Part shown: piece by piece, positions 5,733 through 59,725 of the stretch
Layout of the letters: each line of letters starts with the position of its first letter
How positions within the stretch are numbered: position 1 is the first letter of the stretch
Assembly (NCBI RefSeq): GCF_022809355.1
Contig: NZ_JAKZMM010000026.1
Span: forward strand, 1 to 59,835
Length of the DNA stretch: 59,835 bases
Reading direction: 5' to 3'
Source: Parabacteroides faecalis
GTDB taxonomy: Bacteria > Bacteroidota > Bacteroidia > Bacteroidales > Tannerellaceae
Program-made: the position numbers and the translations under genes
Notes under the pieces: generated by a model
Databases searched by the model: none
Seen by the model: the letters and a program-made list of their open reading frames with translations, nothing else
Told to the model about the DNA's origin: nothing

Positions 5733-7187
5733 TTATGATTTCAAACGTAATGTAAAACAACTTCCTTTTCCAACTTCACTTTCTACAGTTAAAGTGCCAC
5801 CATGAGCCTCAACAAAATCCTTCGAAATGGATAATCCCAATCCGCTTCCTTGAACTTTTGTACCGGGTACCCGGAAATAATGATCAAAAATACTCTGATG
5901 ATAACGAGGATCTATGCCTTTACCGAAATCACGAACATACATTTCAATATAATTATCATCCGTCTGACGGACACCAATAATAATACGGCCATTTTCAGGA
6001 GAATAACGGATTGCGTTCGAGAGTAAATTAGTCAAGACCCAAGCAATTTTCTCACTGTCAACAAATAATTTACCTATTTTATTTTCCGGATACTGTACTT
6101 CGATTTGTATGTTGAACTTTTCAGCTTGTACCCGATTGGCTTTGATGGCATATTCAATCAATTCGATGGGTTTTGTAATACGGGGTTTAAGCTGCAGCTT
6201 ACCAGACTCTACTTGTGTCATATTAAGCAGTTCGCCGGTGATATTCAGCAAACGCTCACTATTATCCTGAATACTTTGCGCCAATTCTTTCTGTTCATCA
6301 TTCAAGTCTCCAATCCGACTGTCCTCGAGTAACTGTAAACTCATCATGATGGCAGAAATAGGTGTTTTCAACTCGTGTGATATGGTCGAAATGAAAGTGG
6401 TCTTGGCAGAATCCAGTTCCTTGAACTCCGTGATATTCTTAAGCATAATAACGTATCCCTCGTTCATAGAACCGGAGTTATTATTCCCGGACTTCTTAAT
6501 CTGCATATATTTCATCTGGAAATAACTTTCCTTATTGTCAGCATATATTTTTAGAGGTTCCGTTTTACTGACTTTATTGTCTTTTTGTGAGTCCATCAGT
6601 TCACGTATGAGCCTTCTCAGCAAATCATTTCTCATAGAAATATCCTGAGCTGGTTTTTGTAAGGCCTCTTCGCGCTTTAAATTAAGGACATTCAAAGCTT
6701 CATCATTTATAAACAAAATGGTTAACTCATTATCCAAGCCTATAATAGGTTCTTTCACACTATTGATAATGGTTTCCATATAATTCTTCGCTGCCTTTAT
6801 TTGTGCCAGTGTACTTGAATGATAATCAGACAACCGCTTAGCCATTCTATTGAAGTTTTCAGAAACTTCTGCAAATTCATGGCTTTCCAGATTTAATCTA
6901 CAATCATAATTATGATTGGCTATATCTTTTATTCCGTCGATAATCTTTTTGATCGGTTTATTAAAATAAGAAGGAAGGATTGTCAGCATGAAAATACCAA
7001 TCACAATACAAAAGCCTCCAATAGTAGAGATCCAAAGCAGTGCGCGTTGTAATCCAGGACCTGCAGCAGGACTATTAGGTTCTGTTGCTGTCAGAATCTG
7101 TAAGTTTACAATAGAAAGTGAGACCAGAAGTACAATCATAGCCACAAGTACTCCTATTGCCAGGGTCAATTTTGTCTTAATATTCAT
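5733..7187 (-). CDS. Membrane histidine kinase with HAMP and PAS domains, Kdp-associated
   Basis: The 484-residue kinase has two membrane helices (~8-30 and ~50-72) with only about 20 residues between them, a HAMP-like linker, a PAS-like domain (~135-255), HisKA with the phospho-acceptor His271 in ISHELKTP, and HATPase_c with N-box NLLSNAIRYSPENG, G1 DFGKG and G2 GSGLGL (447-452). The near absence of a periplasmic loop points to sensing in the membrane or cytoplasm. It follows the kdpD fragment by 11 bp. In enterobacteria these modules are part of one KdpD; here the kinase is a separate protein that lacks the four-helix KdpD membrane domain. The probable partner is the convergent NtrC-type regulator. 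Confidence 0.9.
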   Translation of the reverse strand: MNIKTKLTLAIGVLVAMIVLLVSLSIVNLQILTATEPNSPAAGPGLQRALLWISTIGGFCIVIGIFMLTILPSYFNKPIKKIIDGIKDIANHNYDCRLNLESHEFAEVSENFNRMAKRLSDYHSSTLAQIKAAKNYMETIINSVKEPIIGLDNELTILFINDEALNVLNLKREEALQKPAQDISMRNDLLRRLIRELMDSQKDNKVSKTEPLKIYADNKESYFQMKYMQIKKSGNNNSGSMNEGYVIMLKNITEFKELDSAKTTFISTISHELKTPISAIMMSLQLLEDSRIGDLNDEQKELAQSIQDNSERLLNITGELLNMTQVESGKLQLKPRITKPIELIEYAIKANRVQAEKFNIQIEVQYPENKIGKLFVDSEKIAWVLTNLLSNAIRYSPENGRIIIGVRQTDDNYIEMYVRDFGKGIDPRYHQSIFDHYFRVPGTKVQGSGLGLSISKDFVEAHGGTLTVESEVGKGSCFTLRLKS

Positions 7188-54622: not shown

Positions 54623-55510
54623 TCATTTAACAACCGAGATAGATGAAATCATTCCGAAGTTCTTGTTGTCGTTAACTTCCCAAACGATTTTTCCGTTCTT
54701 GTCGATCTCCATTAATTGAGGAATATTCTTGGAAGCAACGCTCGGATCATGACCTTGCCAATTACAGATATATAAACCGCCATCTTTAGTCGGCAACAGC
54801 TGAGCTACAAAACAGAACTCAACGCCTTCGATATCTCCTGAATTGACCGTACGCAAGATTTCACCACTTTCCAAATTAAATTCTACATAACGATGTGAAT
54901 CACCGCAAGCGCCTACATAATTTCCATTAGCCAGTTTGCTGACACAATACATATTACCCGGCATCTTGATGGTACGCAGTAAATTTCCTTCTACATCGAT
55001 TACCCGTACATCAGCTGTTTCAAACAAAGGAACCAGATAGTTTCCATCTTTATCTACATTCACATGGCGGAACTGAGCATGAGGCACTTCAATACCTGTT
55101 TCGTAGGCAGTCTCACGAATAATTTCTCCCTTCGGACTAACTTCGAATATTTTAGCCGGATGACCGCATTCAGCTACCAGATAATTTCCGTTATCCAATA
55201 CACGGGCTGTCTGAAATTCAGAACCTGCATCAGCCGGAATATTCCATAATTCCTCACCTTGCTTGTTGATCAGCTTAACACCTTTGGCATACGAAAACAG
55301 GATATTTCCATCAGGTGTCCAGCTGGCTGAATTACATTCCCAGCCTTTTTCCAATGGATGTTCCCACTCTACTTTCTTGGTTTCTTTATCAATAATGACA
55401 ATTTTATTCCAACCAGAACCGGCTAACAATAATTTTTCACTCTTCTGCCCGCATGAGAACAATCCCAACATCATACAAACCATACACAGATAAGTAAATA
55501 TTGATTTCAT
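54623..55510 (-). CDS. Lipoprotein with beta-propeller-like repeats
   Basis: The 295-residue protein has a lipoprotein signal (MLGLFSC, Cys20) and repeated WTPDGNILFSY / LDNGNYLVAECG / LANGNYVGACG blocks, the pattern of PQQ- or NHL-like beta-propellers. It is probably periplasmic or surface-attached, binding a ligand rather than catalysing. The thiolase/DHA-kinase operon lies upstream, but a terminator-like hairpin (55534-55590) separates them, so it may be expressed only partly with it. Confidence 0.75.
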   Translation of the reverse strand: MKSIFTYLCMVCMMLGLFSCGQKSEKLLLAGSGWNKIVIIDKETKKVEWEHPLEKGWECNSASWTPDGNILFSYAKGVKLINKQGEELWNIPADAGSEFQTARVLDNGNYLVAECGHPAKIFEVSPKGEIIRETAYETGIEVPHAQFRHVNVDKDGNYLVPLFETADVRVIDVEGNLLRTIKMPGNMYCVSKLANGNYVGACGDSHRYVEFNLESGEILRTVNSGDIEGVEFCFVAQLLPTKDGGLYICNWQGHDPSVASKNIPQLMEIDKNGKIVWEVNDNKNFGMISSISVVK

Positions 55511-55528
55511 AATAAATATACAGTTAGT

Positions 55529-55590
55529 AAAAAAGCTGACAGAATCTGATATTACGTCCGGATAACGGACTGAAACAGATTCTATCAGCT
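55529..55590 (-). terminator. Terminator of the LsrF/DhaKL unit
   Basis: AGCTGACAGAATCTG (55534-55548) pairs with 55576-55590 with one wobble pair; an inner hairpin (GTCCG/CGGAC) closes the loop. On the minus strand TTTTTTACTA follows. It starts 19 bp after the lsrF-like stop. Read-through to the lipoprotein gene is possible. Confidence 0.7.
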
Positions 55591-55608
55591 TACTCGATAT
55601 AAATAAAT

Positions 55609-56481
55609 TTATTTAGACAGATCTTGATACATTTCGTATCCCTGTTCAGCAGTAATACCATCATGTACAACTGCATGAACTGCTTGAATCATAGCCAGCG
55701 GATGTTCGCTCTGGAATACGTTACGTCCCATATCTACACCACAAGCACCATCCTGAACGGCTTTATAGCAAAGCTGCAAAGCATCTAATTCGGGCACTTT
55801 CTTACCTCCGGCGATTACAATAGGAACCGGACAAGTTGCAGCTACACGTTCAAAGCCATCGCAATAATATGTCTTCACAATAGCAGCACCATTTTCAGCA
55901 CACATACGTGAAGCCAATGCGAAATAACGCGCATCGCGAGCCATTTGTTTTCCTACAGCAGTTACACCCATTACAGGAATACCATAGCGATTACCCAAAT
56001 CTACAGCTTTTACCAAATTAGCAGCAGTAACAGCTTCACGTTCTTCGTCACCGGCAGCAAACATAACAGCCATAGCTGAAGCATTCAAGCGGATAGCATC
56101 TTCTACGTCGATCAGAACGTTACGGTTCAATTCTGTCAAGATAGAAGAACCTGCATCTGAACGCAAACAAATCGGTTTGTTTGTAGCGGCAGGAATAGAA
56201 GATTGCAAAATACCGCGTGTACACATCAAGCAGTCAGCATACTGAGTAAGCGGAACAATGCTCAAGTCGATACGTTCCAAACCAGAAGTCGGTCCCATAA
56301 TAAAACCATGGTCAAAAGCCAATAAAACAGCTTTACCGGTCTTCGGATTGAAAATACGGCTTAAACGGTCTTTCATACCCCATGAAAGATTAGCTGCACC
56401 TTTTACGTGAAAGTTTTCTACAGACTGTGCCTGATCGAACCCAAAATTGCTGGCTTCTCTGAAGCCTTCCATATCTGGCAT
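55609..56481 (-). CDS. LsrF-like thiolase/class I aldolase (DeoC/LacD-type barrel)
   Basis: The 290-residue protein is close in sequence to E. coli LsrF (about 291 residues) along its whole length: SRIFNPKTGKAVLLAFDHGF, TSGLERID, YADCLMCTRGIL, SILTEL and VPIVIAGGKK. The Schiff-base lysine is Lys203 in IVKTYY, the same number as in E. coli. LsrF cleaves 3-hydroxy-2,4-pentanedione-5-phosphate, the phosphorylated quorum signal AI-2, transferring an acetyl to CoA. Here it stands with DhaK/DhaL and a VOC protein, not with lsr transport genes, so the substrate may be different. Confidence 0.85.
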   Translation of the reverse strand: MPDMEGFREASNFGFDQAQSVENFHVKGAANLSWGMKDRLSRIFNPKTGKAVLLAFDHGFIMGPTSGLERIDLSIVPLTQYADCLMCTRGILQSSIPAATNKPICLRSDAGSSILTELNRNVLIDVEDAIRLNASAMAVMFAAGDEEREAVTAANLVKAVDLGNRYGIPVMGVTAVGKQMARDARYFALASRMCAENGAAIVKTYYCDGFERVAATCPVPIVIAGGKKVPELDALQLCYKAVQDGACGVDMGRNVFQSEHPLAMIQAVHAVVHDGITAEQGYEMYQDLSK

Positions 56482-56522
56482 AATTTTCTCTTTTTTATTC
56501 GTTAAACAATTATCTATTTAAG

Positions 56523-56563
56523 GTCAAAGTAACCAGCAGAAAATCTCTACCAGTTACTTTGAC
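56523..56563. repeat. Hairpin between dhaL and lsrF-like genes
   Basis: GTCAAAGTAAC (56523-56533) pairs perfectly with 56553-56563. T-rich on its plus-strand side only, so it is more likely an RNA-processing or stability hairpin inside the minus-strand operon than a terminator. Confidence 0.5.
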
Positions 56564-56573
56564 ATTTTTCTTA

Positions 56574-57188
56574 TTATCCAATTTCTGCGAAAGAAGCAAA
56601 CATACAGCTCCAAGAAGCAGCACCACTATCCATATAGCCAACAGAACGTTCGCCATAATTACGGGCACGTCCGAAATTAGCTTTCAACTGAATAGTTGAT
56701 TCAGCTCCTGCCAAAGCTGCCTTTGCACCAGCCTGAAGCACTTCCTTTATATCGTTAGAAGGACAATTCTGGATGGCTTCGACAGCAGGGATCAAAGCAT
56801 CCATCATGGTCTTATCTCCCACTTGTGCACTGGTTTGTTGTTTTACATTTGCCAAACCACCGGCAAACATTTTCTTAACACCTTCGGCATCCAATTCTGT
56901 ACCTTCAGCACAATCGCTCATGCCTAAGAACAAAGCACCCAATAATGTACTGGTTGAACCGCTCACTTCGAGCATCACGTTCATACCCATGTCCATCAGC
57001 ATAGACTTGAATTCTGTTCCTTGCTGTGCAGAACGGACGATGCAAGACAGAGCTGTTACAATAGCAGTTCCATGATCGCCATCACCAATTACGGCATCCA
57101 ACTTGGAGAATTCTTCTTCACGTGCTTTAATATTTTCCAAGGCTTTGTTCATCATTGCCTTGAAATCAGCAATTGTCAGTTTATCCAT
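56574..57188 (-). CDS. Dihydroxyacetone-kinase subunit L (DhaL)
   Basis: The 204-residue protein is the nucleotide-binding half of a DHA-kinase: LDAVIGDGDHG (Asp31, 36, 38 for magnesium), VSGSTSTLLGALFLG, QVGDKTMMDALIPAVEA and GERSVGYMDSGAAS. In E. coli DhaL carries bound ADP that is re-phosphorylated by DhaM; no DhaM is present here, so ATP exchange or another donor is expected. It is 5 bp after dhaK, so they are co-transcribed. Confidence 0.9.
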   Translation of the reverse strand: MDKLTIADFKAMMNKALENIKAREEEFSKLDAVIGDGDHGTAIVTALSCIVRSAQQGTEFKSMLMDMGMNVMLEVSGSTSTLLGALFLGMSDCAEGTELDAEGVKKMFAGGLANVKQQTSAQVGDKTMMDALIPAVEAIQNCPSNDIKEVLQAGAKAALAGAESTIQLKANFGRARNYGERSVGYMDSGAASWSCMFASFAEIG

Positions 57189-57193
57189 ACTAT

Positions 57194-58207
57194 TTATTTA
57201 CCAATTGTAGTCCAATACGGAGCATTTGACTGTTTATTCAAATAAGCGATGTGATCATCGTCCAGCAAAGCCATGATCATCTGGAATCCAGCCTGTTCCT
57301 GTACAGTCAGGATTTCCTGGATACGGCTGCAAGCAACTGTAATGCCACGGCTTTCCAATTCACGATATGCCTTACGGAAAACAATATTCAATTCCATGTG
57401 AGTAGTAGCACCTACACCGTTAATGATCAACAAGGCTTTGCTTCCGGCAGCCGGTTTCAACTGCTGGCACAACAAATCAACCATTTCAGCAGCAGTAGCA
57501 TCTGCAGAAACCAAAGGCTTCTGACCGCCACCACCTTCACCGTGTTGTCCCATTCCGATTTCCATCACACCTGCAGGCAGATCTGTAATAGTAGCACCAT
57601 TCTGCGGATGTGTACATGCACGCATAGCAACAGCCAATGTAGCACAATGTTTATTATAACGTTCTCCGATTTCTACCAATTCGTCCAAAGACTTTCCTTC
57701 TTCTGATGCTGCACCCAGAATCTTATACAAAGGAACACAACCAGCCAAACCACGACGGTCTTTGTCATCAGCGCCAATACCAGCACTGATATCATCATGA
57801 GTTACGATCTGCTTAACTTTGATACCTACACGAGCAGCCAACTGACAAGCCATATTGGCACTCATGATATCACCTGAGTGGTTCAATACAACCAACAAGA
57901 TACCAGCTTCACGTTTCATCAACTGCAAAGCCTGGAACAAACGTTGAGCTCCCGGAGCAGCGAAAATATCACCTACAACTGAGCAGTCCAACATACCTTC
58001 GCCTACAAAACCACTCAAAGCGGGTTCGTGACCAGAACCACCTAATGTTACGATAGCAACTTTATCTTCACTCTTCGGATGTGTACGAACTACGATATTC
58101 TCAGCGGCCAACTTAACCTGATCAGGATAAGCCAATACATAACCTTCCAGCAGTTCTTGTGTGATATGCTGCGGATCATTGATGAATTTTGTCATAATTT
58201 CAGCCAT
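57194..58207 (-). CDS. Dihydroxyacetone-kinase subunit K (DhaK)
   Basis: The ~337-residue protein is the substrate-binding half of a DHA-kinase. It has GGSGHEPALSGFVGEGMLD (His60) and MGQHGEGGGG with His222, the residue that binds the substrate carbonyl covalently in the E. coli enzyme (His218). The frame starts with TTG at 58216; the ATG at 58207 or that at 58195 (MTKFINDP) is more likely. Substrate could be dihydroxyacetone, erythrulose or another short ketose; relatives phosphorylate several. Confidence 0.9.
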   Translation of the reverse strand: MAEIMTKFINDPQHITQELLEGYVLAYPDQVKLAAENIVVRTHPKSEDKVAIVTLGGSGHEPALSGFVGEGMLDCSVVGDIFAAPGAQRLFQALQLMKREAGILLVVLNHSGDIMSANMACQLAARVGIKVKQIVTHDDISAGIGADDKDRRGLAGCVPLYKILGAASEEGKSLDELVEIGERYNKHCATLAVAMRACTHPQNGATITDLPAGVMEIGMGQHGEGGGGQKPLVSADATAAEMVDLLCQQLKPAAGSKALLIINGVGATTHMELNIVFRKAYRELESRGITVACSRIQEILTVQEQAGFQMIMALLDDDHIAYLNKQSNAPYWTTIGK

Positions 58208-58229
58208 AACATTCAATTTTTAGGGTTTA

Positions 58230-58547
58230 TTACTTGATTTCCATTAACTCAATAGCGATACCTTCTTCTTCGATGAAAGCAATTGTCAGGTGTTCATCGC
58301 AAACAGCCGGACCAAAAATTACTTTTTGTCCTTTCAACGCTTCTTCCAATGATGGAACTTGATAAGCGATATGTGCTGTTGTCAAAACTTTTTCTGGCAA
58401 TGGACTTTCTCCTGATTCCAGATAGATAAACTCTATTTTGTTAGCACTCTTACTGAAGTCTGTCAACCAGACATTCAAACCTTCGTTATACATGGCACCT
58501 TCCGGTTTGTAATTTACCGGAACACCAAAATGATTTAACGTTCTCAT
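58230..58547 (-). CDS. Small VOC/glyoxalase-fold protein
   Basis: The 105-residue protein starts MRTLNHFGVPVNYKPEG and contains TTAHIAYQVPSLEEALKGQ and GIAIELMEIK, with His and Glu residues placed as in single-domain vicinal oxygen chelate enzymes. VOC proteins are isomerases, epimerases or lyases that use a metal. It is the first gene of the cassette, 22 bp before dhaK, and could supply an isomerase step. No promoter of its own is obvious in the 35 bp behind the ccsA gene. Confidence 0.7.
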   Translation of the reverse strand: MRTLNHFGVPVNYKPEGAMYNEGLNVWLTDFSKSANKIEFIYLESGESPLPEKVLTTAHIAYQVPSLEEALKGQKVIFGPAVCDEHLTIAFIEEEGIAIELMEIK

Positions 58548-58582: not shown

Positions 58583-59725
58583 TTATTCTACTTCTTGATT
58601 TACGTTCGACAATTTAGAACGATATTTCCAATAAGCGATTGCCGAAATAACGACTATCACTGCAAGGGAAACAAATATATAAATAAATATTCCGTGTACC
58701 TGGTCATTCTCTCCGTAAGAATGCATTCCACTCAGGAAATAGTTCACGCCGAAGAATGTCATCAGTACCGAGCAAAAAGCCATAACAGATAAGAAGTTAA
58801 AAGACCAGGCATTATACCATCTCCGGACTAACCGCAAGTGTTCTACCAACGCATAGACAATCATGGTAATCAAAGCCCACGTTTCTTTTGGATCCCAACC
58901 CCAATAACGTCCCCACGATTCGTTGGCCCAAACGGCTCCTAAGAATGTTCCGATCGTCATCAATGCGAGACCTATCAGCATGGCCATTTCGTTTACGATG
59001 GTCAATTCCCGTATCCGTGTTTGCAACATTCCTTGATTTTTGTCACTTGCCAGCGTCATAACCACCATATTGGTAATTCCCAGCAAACAACAGATACCGA
59101 AGAAACCATAAGCAGCCACAATAACTGCCACATGAAACATCAGCCACGGAGATTTTAACACAGGAACTAACGGACTAATTTCCGGATCCATCCAGTTCAG
59201 ACCTGAAACGAACAAGATGATTCCTCCGAATAAAGTTGCCAAAGCCATCGTTATCCGACTACGACGGACAAACATCAAACCGGCGGCAACCGTAGCCCAA
59301 GCAACATACACCATCGTCTCGTACGAATTACTCCATGGCGCATAGCCGGCTATATACCAACGGACTCCCATTCCGTATGTATGGAATCCAAAAACAGCAA
59401 CAACCAATCCCAGCAGCAGCCAGAAAAGCCAATTCAATTTCCGGAGGTCATTAAACATAGCTGCAAATGCTAGTACCAGCAATAATCCTCCAGCAATCAG
59501 ATAGCCAATCTTGCACTGACGGAAAATATTCATCTGATTATATTTGATTTCTGCCTGCATCTTCTTGGGGCTTATGTCGAGACCTTGACTTTTAGCCTGC
59601 TGATAAGTCTCAATCATTCCTAATACTTCATCAGCTTTGCTCCAGTCTTGTGTTTTCAAAGCAGACTGGACTTCTCCCAAATACCACAAGAAAATCCGAG
59701 AGACAAACAACGAATCCTTTCCACC
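58583..59725 (-). pseudogene. Cytochrome c biogenesis protein, CcsA half, interrupted N-terminally
   Basis: The frame reads about 380 residues with eight or so membrane helices, containing the haem-handling block SWGRYWGWDPKETWALITMI and WSNSYETMVYVAWAT, both signatures of CcsA. In Bacteroidota CcsB and CcsA are usually fused. The frame is closed upstream by a TAG at 59726-59728, and bases 59729-59835 do not continue a CcsB-like reading, so the N-terminal half is missing. The ORF starts at a TTG (59710), which is not convincing. It may be cut by an insertion, or the sequence may end at a contig junction. Confidence 0.75.

Follow-up and report, generated by a model that had tools for sequence, protein, structure and literature searches.

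The dhaK, dhaL, lsrF-like and VOC-like genes of Parabacteroides faecalis form a cassette that is part of an operon of about ten genes conserved in Bacteroidales, and we propose, with a probability of roughly 0.55, that in a glycan-linked pathway of sugar catabolism this cassette forms the cytosolic half. The cassette lies in a 59,835-nucleotide stretch of DNA, hereafter the window (assembly GCF_022809355.1, contig NZ_JAKZMM010000026.1, positions 1-59,835 of the forward strand). A preliminary description of this DNA had placed the four genes in one operon and suggested an alternative pathway for autoinducer-2 (AI-2) or for another ketose phosphate. The operon was confirmed, with all four genes at positions 55609-58547 of the minus strand and Lys203 present in the LsrF-like protein. 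Because the four genes are embedded in a longer conserved operon that also encodes periplasmic electron-transfer proteins, sugar breakdown is more likely than AI-2 processing; a route through the phosphate of some other ketose agrees with both this operon context and the changed substrate pocket of DhaK. In the open-licence literature, which leaves most subscription papers outside, we found no publication on this operon.

We compared 80 operon loci, the best 80 of 224 DhaK relatives from a scan of genome contigs with DhaK as query; 79 bear Bacteroidota names and the remaining one belongs to a metagenome-assembled genome named Clostridiales. Gene presence was scored at each locus by tblastn, and many of the absences, though not all, are contig or locus ends. 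The 80 loci contain DhaL (79), LsrF (79), the VOC-like protein (75), a protein resembling the hydrazine synthase (HZS) alpha subunit (63), a cupin (61), the cytochrome c biogenesis protein CcsBA (55), an FkbO/Hyg5-like protein (55), a beta-propeller protein (48) and an HZS-beta-gamma-like protein (48), in a conserved order and with short gaps. The order in Parabacteroides, to which the nearest named DhaKs belong (93 and 92%, among the best 80 of 224), is mostly IclR, HZS-beta-gamma-like, FkbO/Hyg5-like, cupin, HZS-alpha-like, CcsBA, VOC, DhaK, DhaL, LsrF, propeller. The FkbO/Hyg5-like gene is missing from the operon in the nearest relatives (L107, L108). In Bacteroides cellulosilyticus and its kin, the operon opens with a two-component regulator gene, and HZS-alpha-like, 3-deoxy-D-arabino-heptulosonate 7-phosphate (DAHP) synthase and CcsBA genes lie 3' of the propeller gene.

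In this strain the operon is divided between two contigs. The window ends in the C-terminal part of ccsBA (contig portion 58583-59835, gene at 58583..59710, minus strand), and the N-terminal part is on contig C23 (L192, 1-2192), where it comes after a transposase-like open reading frame at the contig start. Contig C23 also carries IclR, two hydrazine-synthase-like cytochromes, the FkbO/Hyg5-like protein and a D-lyxose-isomerase-like lipoprotein. The two contig ends share only chance-length matches. The split of ccsBA likely results from an insertion in this strain, an assembly break being the alternative.

Is the association of LsrF with DhaK specific? Among 118 genomes of the window's family (Tannerellaceae), LsrF scored over its cut-off in 62 and Dak1 in 51, and the LsrF model passed its cut-off in none of 14 control genomes. 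DhaK lies within 1.5 kb of LsrF and on the same strand in 50 of the 62 LsrF-positive family genomes, a linkage far beyond chance. Ten of the 12 genomes without an adjacent DhaK carry the divergent LsrF of genus g114; in another (G309), the LsrF contig is short and has DhaL but no DhaK, and the last (G240) has no Dak1 match. Other operon genes follow the pair: HZS_alpha was found in 49/50 family genomes with the DhaK-LsrF pair versus 12/68 without it, and the FkbO/Hyg5-like domain in 45/50 versus 17/68, although Fisher values for these counts are overstated by the relatedness of the genomes. In an evenly spread phylum sample of 198 genomes, LsrF passed the cut-off in 43: 40 of family f17, which is of another class and which we suspect to be Chlorobiaceae, single genomes of f15 and f34, and our own genome, the only one of the window's class in this sample to do so. 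At the f17 loci L093 and L097, lsrF adjoins a bifunctional aldolase/short-chain dehydrogenase gene and a RuBisCO-like protein gene (families named from L097), so elsewhere LsrF relatives occur beside different genes.

We annotated the window with NCBIfam and Pfam, scanning seven proteins around the cassette. From 58547 to 55609 the genes run VOC-like, dhaK, dhaL, lsrF-like, separated by 22, 5 and 92 bases when the ATG at 58207 is taken as the dhaK start; the same frame also has a TTG at 58216. The LsrF-like protein (290 aa, 55609..56481, minus strand) is a Schiff-base aldolase/thiolase of the DeoC/LacD superfamily that matches PF01791 and scores 440.7 bits against NF006081 (cut-off 297). It shares 161 of 287 aligned residues (56%) with Escherichia coli LsrF, with Lys203 in register, and the Schiff-base lysine is present in all 76 LsrF proteins of 280-340 aa at the operon loci. 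An annotated record of Parabacteroides distasonis labels the corresponding genes lsrF and dihydroxyacetone kinase subunit. A separate case is a divergent LsrF of genus g114 (L090, 9406-10290), which has Glu at the catalytic Lys203 position.

The kinase subunits are clear family members, DhaK (57194..58207, minus strand) scoring 322.2 bits against Pfam Dak1 (cut-off 31.4) and DhaL (204 aa, 56574..57188, minus strand) 130.7 bits against Dak2 (cut-off 27). Neither reaches its NCBIfam equivalog cut-off (290.5 of 406.25 for DhaK and 131.1 of 138.3 for DhaL). As in the DhaKLM dihydroxyacetone kinase, DhaK and DhaL are encoded by separate genes, and the equivalents of the catalytic residues His56, Asp109 and His218 of DhaK and Asp30/35/37 of DhaL are present; H56, D109, H218 and F78 are retained across the 79 DhaKs of the clade. 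The differences from DhaKLM, besides the missed equivalog cut-offs, are a changed substrate pocket and the lack of any DhaM found in the genome. Several features of the pocket emerged: (i) T79A, S80A, K104L and Y106H occur in 79/79 clade members; (ii) P221 is replaced by G or A in 74 + 5 of the 79; and (iii) E. coli DhaK and two canonical DhaKs of the family retain T79, S80, K104, Y106 and P221, in a comparison that left out two further Dak1 paralogues (L064 and L065) through a motif filter. We read Lys104 as a contact of dihydroxyacetone. Since all five positions are changed in 79/79, dihydroxyacetone is an unlikely substrate, and with the catalytic residues in place and the pocket residues replaced, the kinase is probably intact and acts on a different substrate. 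A kinase coupled to the phosphotransferase system was rejected, since DhaM was not found in a search of the whole own genome; DhaM occurs in 2 of the 118 family genomes, each time sharing a contig with a separate canonical DhaK.

The small VOC-like protein (105 aa, 58230..58547, minus strand) carries a set of residues, H6, E39, H59 and E100, that is invariant in 65/65 VOC-like sequences. It had no Pfam or NCBIfam match at 0.001, Glyoxalase_4 remaining below its cut-off (E 0.0093, 16.7 of 27 bits). At E<=1, Glyoxalase_4 was found in 19 and Glyoxalase in 6 of the 65 sequences. With hhalign, the second half of the protein resembled E. coli GloA (66.7% probability, a half-length match), placing H59 and E100 on an H and an E of GloA that we take to be metal ligands, and YaeR matched weakly (10.3% probability). 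A single-sequence search of the PDB returned nothing at E<=10, and a profile search matched FosB at no better than E 1.1. The VOC label is thus weaker than the other three, drawing mostly on the H/E/H/E residues and the half-length GloA match; we regard the protein as a probable metal-dependent isomerase or epimerase.

The periplasmic part of the operon combines cytochromes with a sugar-type enzyme. A 1331-aa HZS-alpha-like protein (L070 copy) has NPCBM, HZS_alpha and FGE domains, and two CxxCH motifs are present in 49/49 HZS-alpha-like proteins longer than 1250 aa. Its HZS_alpha domain (PF18582) exceeds its own cut-off; the protein misses the NCBIfam hydrazine synthase equivalog (41.5 of 800 bits), and a protein of about 600 aa (L157 copy) scores 90.6 bits against the hydrazine synthase beta-gamma fusion model (cut-off 1250). 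The likeness to anammox hydrazine synthase thus consists of the HZS_alpha domain and a beta-gamma-like fusion with CxxCH motifs, whereas the scores far under the cut-offs, the extra NPCBM and FGE domains and the setting in gut Bacteroidales operons are differences. Neither cytochrome merits the name hydrazine synthase. The cupin lipoprotein (L157 copy) resembles the D-lyxose/D-mannose isomerases 7nzo (1.7e-9) and 2y0o (9e-9), and the FkbO/Hyg5-like protein resembles PDB entry 5ag3 (2.6e-29). Glycan-type neighbours at the 80 loci include GH130 (8), SSF (6), GH36 (3) and MFS (2) proteins, as well as regulators of the hybrid two-component system type (7; this label, like those of SusC and SusD below, was assigned by eye). 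In some Parabacteroides, GH130 stands with SSF or MFS transporters near the operon, and in Bacteroides cellulosilyticus glycosidase-like proteins, all below family cut-offs, lie upstream.

What reactions could such an operon carry out? From the gene content, the conserved order and the catalytic and pocket residues that we observed, we infer each reaction and the substrate. The DhaM-independent, presumably ATP-dependent DhaK/DhaL kinase would phosphorylate a ketose, probably one larger than dihydroxyacetone, on the hydroxymethyl group adjacent to its carbonyl. The Schiff-base lysine of the LsrF-like protein would then split the ketose phosphate by a retro-aldol reaction into dihydroxyacetone phosphate (DHAP) and an aldehyde. 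Alternatively, it may yield DHAP and an acyl-CoA by retro-Claisen cleavage, like E. coli LsrF (for the chemistry of the latter, see PMC7828210). The VOC-like protein may isomerise or epimerise an alpha-hydroxy-ketone before or after phosphorylation. In the periplasm, the cupin isomerase-like lipoprotein and the HZS-like cytochromes, the latter matured by the co-encoded CcsBA, would prepare or oxidise the sugar.

Several observations weigh against this sugar pathway. The genes and residues identified no substrate. The FkbO/Hyg5-like protein and the DAHP synthase, found at 12 of the 80 loci, are ill-suited to a plain sugar pathway, and the glycosidase and transporter neighbours vary by lineage. 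At six loci of 18-19 kb each (L124, L129, L132-L135) the cassette stands without periplasmic genes within those stretches, so it need not be closely linked to the cytochromes. The near-complete genome G240 has LsrF and no Dak1 match. Finally, similarity to LsrF is high, a scavenger of AI-2 would not need LuxS, and AI-2 degradation was proposed in 2018 as plausible for a Bacteroidetes lsrF homologue (PMC6084841).

Loci with HZS paralogues offer a further comparison. At one locus of our own genome (L218) and at L221, an HZS-like protein gene is paired with genes for an FGGY kinase and a DeoC aldolase. Both kinases have xylulokinase as best family (334.8 and 397.1 against a cut-off of 380.25 bits), and the DeoC proteins score 163.5 and 261.9 (cut-off 117.3). 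These loci share with the cassette operon a sugar kinase, a class I aldolase and an HZS-like periplasmic protein, and in L218 an IclR regulator; their kinase and aldolase belong to other families. In the stretches compared, we found no relative of VOC, FkbO/Hyg5-like or ccsBA. The kinase-aldolase pair appeared in only 2 of 8 HZS-paralogue regions read by eye from protein starts, which also counts against the sugar pathway. Tentatively, and as a possibility well short of an even chance, we suggest that the HZS-like cytochromes of gut Bacteroidales may be periplasmic sugar oxidoreductases, several of which would have their own cytosolic kinase-aldolase module. Here this module would be DhaKL/VOC/LsrF, applying Lsr-like chemistry (isomerisation, phosphorylation and retro-Claisen or retro-aldol cleavage) to a sugar-derived diketone or ketose. 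As a separate observation, HZS-alpha paralogues are common, and some family genomes (G257, G277 and others) have up to eight HZS_alpha matches, some of them beside SusC/SusD-like genes.

Could the operon instead be biosynthetic? In that case DhaKL would make DHAP and the LsrF-like protein would join it to an aldehyde, giving a C7-type precursor; together with the chorismatase-like (FkbO/Hyg5-like) protein and DAHP synthase this may lead to a small aromatic or quinone-like cofactor for the cytochromes. The FkbO/Hyg5-like protein and the DAHP synthase of some loci would find a role here, and the LsrF-like protein has weaker similarity to 2-amino-3,7-dideoxy-D-threo-hept-6-ulosonate (ADH) synthase and the BagB/FevI aldolases. 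Seventeen family genomes have the FkbO/Hyg5-like domain without the DhaK-LsrF pair; in five regions read from them (L193-L196 and L210), this chorismatase-like gene adjoins ccsBA in 5/5, and two of the five also carry MFS and GH130, one of these two with VOC. These genes thus have a role of their own, and the occurrence of the chorismatase-like gene with ccsBA in the absence of the cassette counts in favour of biosynthesis. However, the LsrF-like protein is much nearer to the LsrF model (440.7 bits) than to those synthases (166.2), and two chorismatase-like proteins reached only 90.9 and 140.3 of a 325-bit cut-off. No ligase or dehydroquinate-synthase-like protein was seen among the operon proteins scanned, and the transporters, glycosidase-like genes and cupin sugar-isomerase-like protein favour catabolism. 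We therefore consider biosynthesis unlikely.

An AI-2 function, the first suggestion of the preliminary description, fares slightly worse and seems improbable to us. AI-2 as a self-made signal was rejected, LuxS being found in 0 of the 118 family genomes, our own included (5 of the 14 controls were positive); among named operon carriers, 3 of 13 have it. According to a 2008 paper (PMC2561040), luxS is widely found in Bacteroidetes, so that its absence holds for the family and not for the phylum, and AI-2 could come from neighbours. The cassette might then scavenge or quench it: the VOC protein would isomerise 4,5-dihydroxy-2,3-pentanedione (DPD) made by neighbours, DhaKL would phosphorylate the product, and LsrF would cleave the phosphate, giving acetyl-CoA and DHAP. 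With isomerisation as the first step, the product would be a hydroxymethyl ketone, which could be acceptable to a DhaK-type enzyme. The 56% identity to E. coli LsrF, with Lys203 and a score over the NF006081 cut-off, and the published suggestion cited above speak for this scheme. Like the E. coli Lsr system (LsrK, LsrG and LsrF), the cassette has an LsrF relative whose neighbours include a kinase and a probable isomerase. It differs in having DhaKL for the FGGY kinase LsrK, a VOC-like protein for LsrG, an IclR regulator and cytochrome partners, with no LsrB relative found and no LuxS found in the family. The suggestion that DhaKL and VOC stand in for LsrK and LsrG may hold as a parallel in chemistry, but AI-2 as the substrate was not supported.

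With E. coli LsrB as query, run without a positive control, we found no relative in the own genome. The closest LsrK relative there is the FGGY kinase of L218, 26% identical, which scores 204.6 of 528 bits against the AI-2 kinase model NF008187 and best as a xylulokinase, though below that cut-off also; the LsrK relatives of this genome lie on other contigs than the cassette. Of the absences noted in the preliminary description, that of DhaM was checked in the whole genome and that of an lsr transporter with the limit just given, neither being found; the seven proteins scanned in and near the cassette included no glycerol gene, in a scan not aimed at glycerol genes. In a tree of 30 LsrF rows, 19 Bacteroidales proteins cluster together (support 87/97, not starred), separate from the LsrF of E. 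coli and the plasmid LsrF of Lacticaseibacillus paracasei, with the deeper branching order unresolved. The window protein is 55.8% identical to the former and 50.5% to the latter. Seven positions common to these two lsr references, which are 51% identical to each other and the only two compared, differ in at least 67 of 74 Bacteroidales proteins, including F61I and Q141M. The f17 proteins share the E. coli residue at six of these positions in 13/13 and at T191 in 8/13, and no lsr operon surrounds lsrF at the f17 loci read; an f17 protein (62%) is nearer than the window protein (55% in the same alignment) to E. coli LsrF. The L. paracasei lsrF shares its operon with lsrK and genes for an ABC importer; this operon also has a small cupin protein and, in the stretch shown (the gene table is incomplete), no annotated lsrG, a point in favour of scavenging. 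In contrast, the partners of our cassette are cytochromes, sugar-isomerase-like proteins and, in some lineages, glycan-associated genes. Thus, operon context and not the name LsrF separates the two systems, and in this context an AI-2 reading of lsrF needs a direct test.

Ordinary handling of dihydroxyacetone, erythrulose or methylglyoxal, with DhaKL scavenging dihydroxyacetone, the LsrF-like protein as a general aldolase and VOC as a glyoxalase-like detoxifier, would suit the family assignments, the intact catalytic residues of DhaK and DhaL and the alignment of VOC H59 and E100 with GloA, but it is the least probable explanation given the five replaced pocket positions, the missed equivalog cut-offs and the tight linkage to both LsrF and the cytochrome module.

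Other features of the locus concern its layout. The lsrF gene is bracketed by two very stable hairpins on the minus strand. The dhaL-lsrF gap (56484..56573) contains an 18-bp perfect RNA hairpin (-26.4 kcal/mol for the stretch, z -6.6), and 3' of lsrF (55511..55608) lies a strong terminator-like hairpin with a T-run (-34.2 kcal/mol, z -8.0), which was absent from the output of a simple terminator scan. Across the operon loci, gaps of at least 30 bases folded below -10 kcal/mol in 27/54 cases between dhaL and lsrF and in 19/22 between lsrF and the propeller gene (raw energies, without shuffles). The beta-propeller protein (54623..55510, minus strand; PF22701), the frequent downstream neighbour counted above, has an N-terminus that looks lipoprotein-like by eye. 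At L136, a rhamnulose-1-phosphate aldolase gene (6090-6905) lies directly 3' of a DhaK-DhaL-LsrF cassette without VOC. Two operon copies occur within one species in Bacteroides clarus (L165/L208) and in Bacteroides nordii (L117/L166).

For lsrF in these bacteria, the operon context suggests another job than the AI-2 degradation put forward in PMC6084841. If the sugar pathway that we propose is correct, a variant two-part ketose kinase would be linked to hydrazine-synthase-related periplasmic cytochromes in common gut bacteria, and those cytochromes would gain a testable function.

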